A stretch of 20,726 nt of DNA, taken from a virus. The stretch covers positions 1 to 20,726 of the IMG/VR virus record IMGVR_UViG_3300021356_000212. One strand, 5' to 3'. A model generated the notes under the pieces. It did no database searches. It was not told where the DNA came from and was given only the letters and a program-made list of their open reading frames with translations. The number at the start of each line of letters is the position of its first letter. The first letter of the stretch is position 1. Positions 1,056 to 3,570 of this stretch are shown here, piece by piece. The translations under genes and the position numbers were made by a program.

Positions 1056-1783
1056 AGCGAGTCCTAGCAACGCTTCTGCTGCTTTCCGCTCCAGCACAAG
1101 CACAAGTTTCAAGCACTGCCGCCCCAGTTGCCAACAGCTCTGGAAGTGTGACGAATCAGGCAGTTCAAGTCGTGCCGAGTCGCCAATTTACAAATACATA
1201 CGGCGGAGGGATTAGTTGCCAAGGCGCAACGCTAAACATCAATCCATTTCTTAGCTCCACCACTAGCTGGGCTGATCCGTATGAGTCGCATTACAACGAA
1301 CCGGTTTATGACACGATCGATTTGGTTGGCGCGTTTGATCCGGAAGGCAATCCCGTCCCAGATGGCAGGCCCGATAATCCGGGCAATGTCCTTTTCTATA
1401 AACCTATTCGCACGGGCCAAAAAACTAACTTCTCGATCAACGGTGGAATCACTGCCACCTTCTCAATACCGCTGGACCGACACCACGTCAGAACTTGCCG
1501 CAAGGCAGCTGAAAAGCAGGTGGCACTGCTAGACGCCAAGCTTGCCAATGAGCGAATGGTCTACGAGATCAAACGCCTCAAAAATTGCGCTGACCTCATC
1601 AGAGATGGTGTCATGTTCCACCCTGACAGTCCTTTCTCGGCAATCTGCGCTGATGTTGTCGTAAACAACCCACCGCCAAAGATTCCGCCCCACACTCATA
1701 AAATCATTTACGCAAAGCCCTCTGGTTCTTCTGACGCTGCGAAACAGACTCGACAGGCACCTTCTTCCCCAGCTTCTCCTTGA
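1052..1783 (+). CDS. Exported protein with four cysteines, third of the trio
   Basis: This is a 243-residue protein with a clear signal peptide, MKRVLATLLLLSAPAQA, then QVSS. The mature protein has four Cys at about residues 56, 149, 179 and 199, which could form two disulfides after export. A charged helical stretch (about 147-185, TCRKAAEKQVALL to IKRLKNC) sits between Cys 149 and Cys 179. The C-terminal 45 residues are Pro-rich. Translation probably couples to the preceding gene through ATGA. The 3' end is overprinted: the last 80 nt (1704-1783) are also the 3' end of the minus-strand gene at 1704-2477. I recall similar 'GGGxxCQG...NINPF' proteins from cyanophages but cannot name a function. 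A secreted or envelope role is inferred only from the signal peptide and Cys content. Confidence 0.85.
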   Translation: MKRVLATLLLLSAPAQAQVSSTAAPVANSSGSVTNQAVQVVPSRQFTNTYGGGISCQGATLNINPFLSSTTSWADPYESHYNEPVYDTIDLVGAFDPEGNPVPDGRPDNPGNVLFYKPIRTGQKTNFSINGGITATFSIPLDRHHVRTCRKAAEKQVALLDAKLANERMVYEIKRLKNCADLIRDGVMFHPDSPFSAICADVVVNNPPPKIPPHTHKIIYAKPSGSSDAAKQTRQAPSSPASP

Positions 1784-2477
1784 TCTTCTTAATCGTCTTT
1801 TTGACGATGGGTTTGACCGCTTTGAGCAAAATGTCCCCTAACGGTTTGACGAAGATGGCAACCGTCGTGGCAATCGCCACAGTCGTTGCAGTCGTCGCCA
1901 CAGCAGGCGCACCAGGAAGATAATTGCCGATGATCGTTGGTACGTCCAGCTGTTCATAGATCGCCTCGCACTTGCCCTCATCATTCCTCTTGTAACCAAT
2001 AATGACGGCAGTTTGCGCTTTGTTCTTCGCACCTAAAGGAATTGCGTCAGGTGGAGGGCACGGCAATTCCGTGGCTACGTTTGGAATGTCGGGAACGGCA
2101 CCCGGCGGGGAAGAGACACTGTCCGGTTGGTTTGATGCACCAGCCGGCTTTTCTATGTCTACATCAATGTCTGGATCAATCGCTGGTGGCTTTGCTGATC
2201 CATACGTCAGAGTGCCGGGCGTGAAATTAAGCGGCCTGTATGAAGGCATTTCCGCCCCACAGACAACCAGATTCCCACGAGGGTCATCGGTGTAAACCTG
2301 TTCATCTCCAGCTGCCGAACTTCGAGTCTCCACGCAGCCCGGAATATCCGCCACTGGAAATCCAAGCTGCAACGTGATGGGTGGTTCATTTGGAATACTC
2401 TGTGGTGGCAGTGAGCGCCATTCAAGAATCTCTGGAATGGAGATGCGTTGAACCCCAATTTCAGGAATCTCAGGCAT
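1704..2477 (-). CDS. Pro-rich protein with one membrane segment and a basic tail; function unknown
   Basis: This is a 257-residue protein. Residues 1-45 are full of Pro and Ile/Glu (MPEIPEIGVQ, then PPQSIPNEPPITL); residues 98-145 are a second Pro/Asp-rich stretch (for example IDPDIDVDIEKP). There are four Cys at about 48, 73, 140 and 170. A hydrophobic Ala/Thr/Val segment at about 191-210 is followed by a very basic tail (KKTIKKIKEKLGKK), so topology is likely N-out/C-in or a peripheral amphipathic end. There is no signal peptide. The start ATG (2477-2475) shares two bases with the divergent ATG at 2476; no clear Shine-Dalgarno lies upstream. It lies beyond the terminator at 3015-3054, so it needs read-through or its own promoter, which I could not identify. 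Its 3' end overlaps the converging exported-protein gene by 80 nt. It resembles hypothetical cyanophage proteins as I remember them. Confidence 0.8.
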   Translation of the reverse strand: MPEIPEIGVQRISIPEILEWRSLPPQSIPNEPPITLQLGFPVADIPGCVETRSSAAGDEQVYTDDPRGNLVVCGAEMPSYRPLNFTPGTLTYGSAKPPAIDPDIDVDIEKPAGASNQPDSVSSPPGAVPDIPNVATELPCPPPDAIPLGAKNKAQTAVIIGYKRNDEGKCEAIYEQLDVPTIIGNYLPGAPAVATTATTVAIATTVAIFVKPLGDILLKAVKPIVKKTIKKIKEKLGKKVPVESVSQRQKNQRALRK

Positions 2478-2478
2478 G
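2475..2478. promoter_or_regulatory. Overlapping divergent start codons (CATG)
   Basis: The palindrome CATG holds the ATG of the plus-strand gene (2476-2478) and the ATG of the minus-strand gene (2477-2475, read on the other strand). There is no room for a promoter between them, so each transcript must start inside the coding sequence of the other. A 7-bp inverted repeat (ACGGTTT 2487-2493, AAACCGT 2520-2526) lies just inside the plus-strand gene and might be an operator or an RNA hairpin. Confidence 0.7.
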
Positions 2479-2790
2479 AAGTCAGAACGGTTTACAGCTG
2501 GTCAACTCTGGATAGAAAGAAACCGTAGACGAGAGGGACCGCCCGTTGTTTACACCGTTCTGTGCGGCAAAACAGCAAGACCGTTTACCGACCACAAGGC
2601 TATTCTTAAATTTGTGAAATGGCCGAAAGGGACACCAACTGGTGACAAACTGCGCGAATGGTTAGCTTCGTTTGAGCAAAAACCGGAAGCACCCGCGCCA
2701 GAACTTGATATGGCAAAAATCAAGGCTGAAGGCTTTGGACCTGAAGCTCATGACGACGATCCAACCGCCAACACTAAAATGGTGACTTGA
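2476..2790 (+). CDS. Small soluble basic/acidic protein, divergent; function unknown
   Basis: This is a 104-residue protein with no signal peptide or membrane segment. Residues 1-75 are basic, with a compact globular look and a possible small beta core (RREGPPVVYTVLCGKTARPF) followed by a helical part (HKAILKFVKWPKGTPTGDKLREWLASF). The last 30 residues are acidic and Pro-rich. The start ATG at 2476 is preceded by AGGA at 2462-2465, about 10 nt upstream, a plausible ribosome site. It is the only plus-strand gene between two minus-strand genes: its start codon overlaps that of the gene at 1704-2477, and its stop overlaps the end of the gene at 2774-3010 by 17 nt. No convincing long frame opposes its interior, and the KWPKGTPTGDKLREWL stretch looks like real protein. 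I do not recognise a domain. Confidence 0.75.
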   Translation: MKSERFTAGQLWIERNRRREGPPVVYTVLCGKTARPFTDHKAILKFVKWPKGTPTGDKLREWLASFEQKPEAPAPELDMAKIKAEGFGPEAHDDDPTANTKMVT

Positions 2791-3010
2791 TCGGTAGAGC
2801 TGGACCAGTAGTTGTCGGCAGCTCTGGCAAAGCCTCATCAATCTGACCAGGCACCATGTCAGTGACCATCTTGGTCAACTCAAGCCTCAGCTCACTCATG
2901 TAGTGCTTTGTTAGCGATGGGATGCGCGTGTAGAGCATCACCGTTCCAATCACCATGCCAGCACTCATGGTGAATGCTGCCACTGACATCACGTTAAAAA
3001 GCTTTTGCAT
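2774..3010 (-). CDS. 78-residue single-pass membrane protein
   Basis: The start is placed at the ATG at 3010-3008. The frame can be extended to a TTG at 3064, but that would run coding sequence through the terminator hairpin and lose the ATG. Residues 6-28 form a hydrophobic helix (NVMSVAAFTMSAGMVIGTVMLY), followed by a helix with mixed charge (SELRLELTKMVTDMV) and a Pro/Thr-rich end (LPELPTTTGPALPIKSPF). The probable Shine-Dalgarno (GGAGGGGG on the minus strand, 3030-3023) is 12-15 nt from the start and forms the 3' arm of the terminator stem, so translation could depend on whether that hairpin is folded. Its last 17 nt overlap the converging gene at 2476-2790. I recall similar small proteins in cyanophages. 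No function is assigned; an inner-membrane location is the simplest reading. Confidence 0.75.
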   Translation of the reverse strand: MQKLFNVMSVAAFTMSAGMVIGTVMLYTRIPSLTKHYMSELRLELTKMVTDMVPGQIDEALPELPTTTGPALPIKSPF

Positions 3011-3014
3011 GGCA

Positions 3015-3054
3015 AGAAAAAACCCCCTCCTGCTGTGTGAGAACCAAGAGGGGG
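3015..3054 (-). terminator. Intrinsic terminator closing the tail operon
   Basis: On the minus strand a 7-bp stem of CCCCCTC (3054-3048) pairs with GAGGGGG (3029-3023) around an 18-nt loop, and a run of six T (3022-3017) follows directly, then CTT. On the plus strand there is no T-run after the second arm, so it works in one direction only. It begins 25 nt after the stop of the porin-like gene at 3080, as expected for the end of the long minus-strand operon. The 3' arm also contains the likely ribosome-binding site of the gene that starts at 3010. Confidence 0.85.
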
Positions 3055-3079
3055 AAGCGTGCAACCTATCTCAGGCTAA

Positions 3080-3433
3080 TCAGAAGGTCCACTTAGCGCC
3101 AATCTTGGTGCCAATGACAGGTTCACTGTCGGTGGTGATGAAGCTAACTTCGCCATAAACGCCGAAATTTTCAGTGGCTTGAACGCTGCCACCAATCTTG
3201 CCAGAAAGCTCAATCTCAGCTTCACCACCATCAGGCGAAACGACGGCAGGGCCACCTTGCAGGTAGTAGCCATACGTTCCATCGCCACCTTCATAGCCAA
3301 TGTGCATGTCGGTGGTTGAGCCGAGATACCCGTCTTGGTATCCAGCGTTATTCTCCACGTTGGCATAAGGGCCTGCCAAGGCAGCTGAACCAGCGAGAAC
3401 ACCAGAAACAGCGATCGCGAATGGTTTGATCAT
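3080..3433 (-). CDS. Short porin-like secreted beta-barrel-type protein
   Basis: This is a 117-residue protein. Residues 1-20 are a signal peptide (MIKPFAIAVSGVLAGSAALA, then GPYANVE). The mature 97 residues alternate polar and hydrophobic residues with many Gly, Tyr and Val, and end in KWTF: a C-terminal aromatic residue on an alternating strand is the known sorting signal of outer-membrane beta-barrels. Visible strands include DMHIGYEG, YGYYLQGGPAVV, EAEIELSGKIGG, FGVYGEVSF and IGTKIGAKWTF. This is too short for a complete eight-strand barrel unless subunits assemble, so it may be a partial barrel or oligomeric outer-membrane protein. I recall homologous 'GPYANVE' proteins in cyanophages. 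It is the last gene before the terminator and starts 11 nt after the stop of the 41-residue gene. No clear Shine-Dalgarno is seen. Confidence 0.8.
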   Translation of the reverse strand: MIKPFAIAVSGVLAGSAALAGPYANVENNAGYQDGYLGSTTDMHIGYEGGDGTYGYYLQGGPAVVSPDGGEAEIELSGKIGGSVQATENFGVYGEVSFITTDSEPVIGTKIGAKWTF

Positions 3434-3444
3434 TGGAAAGAAGA

Positions 3445-3570
3445 TTAGCGTTTTCCTTGTCCACGATACTTCTTCCGTCCATGTGACGGTTTTGAATGTG
3501 ATCCATTCCCCTGTCTAGTCTTTTTTGGTTTGCTAGGAACGAAATTTTGCCCGCTAAGTGATTTCGCCAT
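3445..3570 (-). CDS. 41-residue very basic protein
   Basis: This small gene encodes MAKSLSGQNFVPSKPKKT and continues with Gly, Ser, His, Lys and Arg to a C-terminal GRKKYRGQGKR. About a third of the residues are Lys, Arg or His, there is no hydrophobic core, and it is probably disordered and able to bind nucleic acid. The start ATG (3570-3568) overlaps the TGA of the preceding gene as TGATG, and the TAA at 3447-3445 lies 11 nt before the next start. The tight fit between two genes, the ATG and the composition support it being real despite its size. I recall similar short basic proteins ('NFVPSKPKKTRQGNG' type) in T4-like cyanophages, always unnamed. Function unknown. Confidence 0.75.
   Translation of the reverse strand: MAKSLSGQNFVPSKPKKTRQGNGSHSKPSHGRKKYRGQGKR

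Follow-up and report, generated by a model that had tools for sequence, protein, structure and literature searches.

The genes P and M of the window, the complete 20,726-nt (20.7-kb) record IMGVR_UViG_3300021356_000212 of a single IMG/VR virus, diverge from one CATG tetranucleotide that carries both of their start codons. Comparison with related loci indicates that this fusion is a genuine, if rare, way of arranging two genes, and the CATG is best read as the locked joint of a module and not as a demonstrated switch. The ATG of P occupies positions 2476 to 2478 on the plus strand and the ATG of M positions 2477 to 2475 on the minus strand, so that the joint covers 2475 to 2478 and bases 2476 and 2477 are common to both start codons. 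In the favored explanation, which is given a probability of roughly 0.6, P would be an antisense insert locked in at the CATG, with M read after the phrog_568 gene and P transcribed from a promoter of its own within M.

Under this explanation, P is an antisense insert between the phrog_568 gene and M, both on the minus strand, and its ends are trimmed to the CATG joint on one side and to a 17-nt overlap on the other. With two genes starting at the CATG, no substitution would leave both start codons intact, which would hold all four bases fixed. Lock-in of this kind, combined with an exchange of P between phages at the joint, for which there is support, would keep the CATG in place. M would be the distal cistron of the minus strand after phrog_568, read through P in antisense, and P would be transcribed from a promoter located somewhere in codons 1 to ∼105 of M, since a conserved terminator inside M closes the gp168-gp165 operon. 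The transcripts of P and M would overlap; a search for sequence evidence that the overlap serves as a control device found none.

The shared start codons and the two genes

The two start codons on one CATG and the lack of intergenic space between the genes had been described in an earlier note on this DNA, and the window sequence and both open reading frames (ORFs) bear out the description, with two bases shared. The note also called for a comparison with homologous loci. Scans of IMG/VR recovered hundreds of relatives for each protein, and among the loci fetched, the ATG of P lies within the CATG that opens the minus-strand M frame in every distinct context in which P stands beside M (140/140). 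These contexts span 26 M clusters with less than about 75% identity between clusters and include short, strongly divergent M alleles ('MEIREI...') recognizable only at the C terminus. Displaced start codons in homologues and a loss of coding constraint, both of which the earlier note had named as evidence against the pair, were looked for. Homologues keep both starts, those in other phages begin at the same residue, and both proteins are under purifying selection, with a median dN/dS of 0.077 for P and 0.221 for M. The head-to-head coding overlap at the 5' ends joins two real genes and is kept across relatives. In loci lacking P, M starts with GTG in 72 cases and with ATG in 34; wherever the CATG is shared with P, M starts with ATG, as the joint demands.

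P (2476 to 2790, plus strand) encodes an accessory protein of 104 residues that matches phrog_37139 (E of 4e-18). Its AlphaFold model shows a β4-α2 arrangement with a mean pLDDT of 75 and a low-confidence C-terminal third. At an E value of ≤0.001, the model has no match in the PDB, and its matches among viral structures are restricted to its own cyanophage relatives. M (1704 to 2477, minus strand) encodes 257 residues and belongs to phrog_570, the 'gp164' family of cyanomyoviruses (E of 7e-57). Neither Pfam nor PHROGs gives a function for P or M. The 3' end of P overlaps the 3' end of the phrog_568 gene by 17 nt, an overlap found in 90 loci. The NTKM motif at the C terminus of P is present in distant homologues too, so this end is P's own. 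These distant homologues, with 25 to 38% identity over the whole protein, have in common a nearly invariant tail, ...EEPNDNTKM(V/I), encoded at about 2740 to 2787 in the window.

The shared-start arrangement is absent from six P homologues in other contexts of other phages and from all of the more distant homologues of P. The homologues without it include some in early-type regions of podoviruses.

An insertion slot between the phrog_568 gene and M

In the window, M is preceded on its own strand by the phrog_568 gene (2774 to 3010, minus strand; 78 residues counted from the ATG at 3010), and P lies between the two. In relatives lacking P, phrog_568 and M are immediate neighbors in this order on one strand. 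Of the 95 P-less loci with a long-type M that were measured, 77 have the phrog_568 stop at a distance of -1, 1, 3, or 4 nt from M; the distance is 3 or 4 nt in 74 P-less loci, and a one-base overlap occurs in 2. The locus L009 represents a clean empty site, in which TAGTG joins the phrog_568 stop to the start of an M 84% identical to that of the window. This abutment in P-less relatives shows P to be an accessory gene that was placed antisense in a cargo slot between phrog_568 and M, and both of its ends overlap the neighboring genes, through the CATG on the side of M and by 17 nt on the side of phrog_568.

The same slot is filled in one other clade by an unrelated antisense ORF of 46 codons (L292, L280, and L298), which has the same CATG joint and also overlaps the phrog_568 3' end. 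Its dN of 0.04 to 0.06 against a dS of 0.29 to 0.37, from three sequences only, suggests that this ORF is coding, and its product has no match in phage records. Separately, a gap of 213 nt between phrog_568 and M recurs in 11 P-less loci with a long-type M (for example, L006, L012, L029, and L030), which hints at a different cargo gene there.

The joint appears to outlast the exchange of its parts. In eight pairs of loci, P is near-identical beside M proteins of less than 60% identity, and the silent divergence of P reaches a plateau near 0.4, compared to values of up to 0.68 for M. Both observations support an exchange of P, or of M, between phages with retention of the joint.

A probable terminator inside M and the transcription of P

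The plus-strand operon upstream of P runs from gp168 to gp165. In the window, it includes a gp167-like gene (118 to 609; phrog_564), a gp166-like gene (606 to 1055; DUF6322, phrog_650), and a gp165-like gene (1052 to 1783; phrog_848/1755), which closes the operon and overlaps M tail to tail by 80 nt. Between gp165 and P, a plus-strand terminator-like hairpin with a T-rich tail lies at 2123 to 2155 (stem at 2123 to 2147), antisense in codons 108 to 121 of M. The hairpin recurs at the homologous place in nearly all long-type M genes, with and without P, and is found in 16 of 21 long-M clusters, compared to 1.4 expected from synonymous shuffles. In an alignment of 27 sequences, hand-picked from 114 distinct long-M segments and mostly hairpin bearing and of one length, 97.7% of the cells are paired, with 18 two-sided changes confined to two of the eight pairs. 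None of 500 shuffles scores as high, a control that leaves the relatedness of the 27 sequences in, and slid controls drop to 6 to 53% paired. The element has the sequence hallmarks of an intrinsic terminator, namely, a GC-rich stem-loop, a T tract behind it, and a structure whose conservation is shown by covariation. An Rfam scan of positions 1500 to 3500 gave no match.

With such a terminator, the gp168-gp165 operon should end about 320 nt before P, and this closure makes a P promoter inside M likely. The proposition of the earlier note that the promoter of each gene must lie in the other gene is thereby upheld for P as a likely arrangement. Not every locus isolates P in this way, since the hairpin is mostly missing in short-type M loci. 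A scan for σ70-type promoters over 32 cluster representatives on the P side gave scores of 4.5, compared to 4.9 for shuffled sequences, in a test that covers σ70-like signals and not phage-specific promoters. Synonymous-site constraint along M, compared between P-bearing and P-less loci, reveals no clear promoter footprint, and a weak P-specific constraint is seen in codons 1 to 6 and 25 to 30 only.

An alternative, in which P is expressed solely when transcription of the gp168-gp165 operon reads through a leaky terminator and the shared start is a by-product of compaction, is doubtful. In its favor, P lies on the strand of that operon, 692 nt beyond the stop of gp165, the terminator is lacking in most short-M loci, and the promoter signal for P does not exceed chance. 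Against it, a strong hairpin and T tract with compensatory changes separate P from gp165 in nearly all loci with a long-type M.

A possible ribosome-binding site of P, AGGA at 2463 to 2466 on the plus strand, is written in antisense by codons 4 and 5 of M. A Shine-Dalgarno-like motif, mostly AGGA, occurs upstream of P in 13 of the 17 P-bearing long-M clusters and in none of the 8 P-bearing short-M clusters; before M, such a motif is absent from all 26 P-bearing clusters. The use of CCT for Pro5 of M, which gives AGG on the plus strand, was considered as a trace of selection for this site (40/41 loci with P and 18/24 without) and was rejected as confounded by descent, because the nearest P-less relatives carry CCT too. 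Among the cluster representatives, no plus-strand hairpin with a T tract was found beyond the start of M that might act as P's own terminator.

Transcription of M and the question of control at the joint

For M, a promoter within the partner gene is not a necessity. No minus-strand terminator-like hairpin is found between the phrog_568 gene and M in P-bearing loci, and M abuts phrog_568 in P-less relatives, so that M could be read from the phrog_568 transcript. On the M side, the σ70-type scan of 31 cluster representatives gave a mean score of 3.2 upstream of M within P, compared to 5.0 for shuffles, again for σ70-like signals and not phage-specific promoters. The favored account of how the phrog_568 gene and M are transcribed has against it a minus-strand terminator-like hairpin with a T tract at 3014 to 3054, which lies just before the phrog_568 gene, between it and an OMP-like gene (3080-3433), and has similar counterparts in many relatives. 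The loop sequence of this hairpin, TCTCACACAGCA, is common to several relatives.

These results bear on the idea of a mutual switch, in which each promoter would lie inside the coding sequence of the other gene and complementary 5' ends, together with an inverted repeat, would cause interference or antisense silencing. The missing intergenic space fits this idea, as does the conserved terminator, which separates P from the plus operon upstream of it and makes a P promoter inside M likely. The idea is nevertheless improbable, as the scores upstream of M fall below those of shuffles, M is readable with phrog_568 as in P-less relatives, and no conserved promoter-like constraint is seen in M. The 7-bp inverted repeat just inside P (ACGGTTT at 2487 to 2493 and AAACCGT at 2520 to 2526, plus strand) had been put forward as part of the control; with both arms present in only 5 of 102 relatives, it is not conserved and was rejected as an operator.

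A further proposal, which is very improbable, takes the joint itself as a selected regulatory device and not as a by-product of compaction: the slot would accept unrelated antisense genes in fused-start form because the shared start would make M and the cargo gene depend on each other for initiation. Both P and the 46-codon ORF, which is unrelated to it, have the fused-start form. That one ORF or start codon is spurious, either a noncoding frame or a misannotated start of the kind that long divergent overlaps in prokaryote annotation proved to be (PMC2478687), is refuted in the main, with next to no probability left to it, by the purifying selection, the constant joint, and the common start residues described above.

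Relationship to known overlapping genes and phage modules

Divergent overlaps are the rarest class of gene overlap, and the long annotated ones proved to be start-codon errors. Across 58 genomes, they account for 331 of 14,958 overlaps, and 57 of the 331 span fewer than 5 nt (PMC2174442; summed here from Tables 2 and 3). A second prokaryote survey lists 457, about 1% of overlaps, and judges all 75 of those longer than 60 bp to be misannotations (PMC2478687). The short divergent pairs of these surveys likewise stand head to head, and their first few bases overlap. The P/M pair differs from them in that all relatives found to carry P and M retain the 2-nt overlap, and in the availability of an empty-site comparison and of an unrelated gene at the same joint elsewhere. 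It represents a variant, of which no published description was found, within a known but rare class; a literature search returned no paper on the P/M CATG pair, an absence that counts as weak evidence. The empty site, the independent gene at the joint, and the signs of exchange make P/M a well-supported short divergent overlap.

P resembles the phage morons of Hendrix et al. 1999, as they are cited for the cyanosiphovirus P-SS2 (PMC2784084), in being a small gene inserted between neighbors that adjoin each other in relatives, in this case antisense to both. Unlike morons, it brought in no spacer, and both of its ends overlap the adjacent genes; no terminator of its own was found, nor a σ70-type promoter signal above that of shuffles. 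The convergent gp164-gp167 module of cyanomyoviruses such as S-RIM2 is built from the same gene families and shows the same tail-to-tail overlap of gp165 and gp164. In S-RIM2, in contrast, there is no P beside gp164, and its gp164 was found to lack the antisense terminator hairpin. The covarying terminator antisense in a protein-coding gene illustrates how, in a very compact phage genome, one operon can terminate within the next, and it gives a concrete place to look for the P promoter.

Source virus and distribution of P

The other minus-strand genes of the window match tail and connector families, among them the tape measure, the central fiber J, and the tail terminator, and identify the virus as a siphovirus-type tailed phage. 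Its named relatives are marine cyanophages, which makes a cyanobacterial host likely. The viruses carrying P and M together are uncultured ocean viruses whose hosts are probably cyanobacteria. In cellular genomes, P occurs on two contigs only, both from metagenome bins. The contig L372, binned as a Sphingobacteriales genome, carries a P gene (88% identical) with the CATG joint and is probably a phage contig within the bin.
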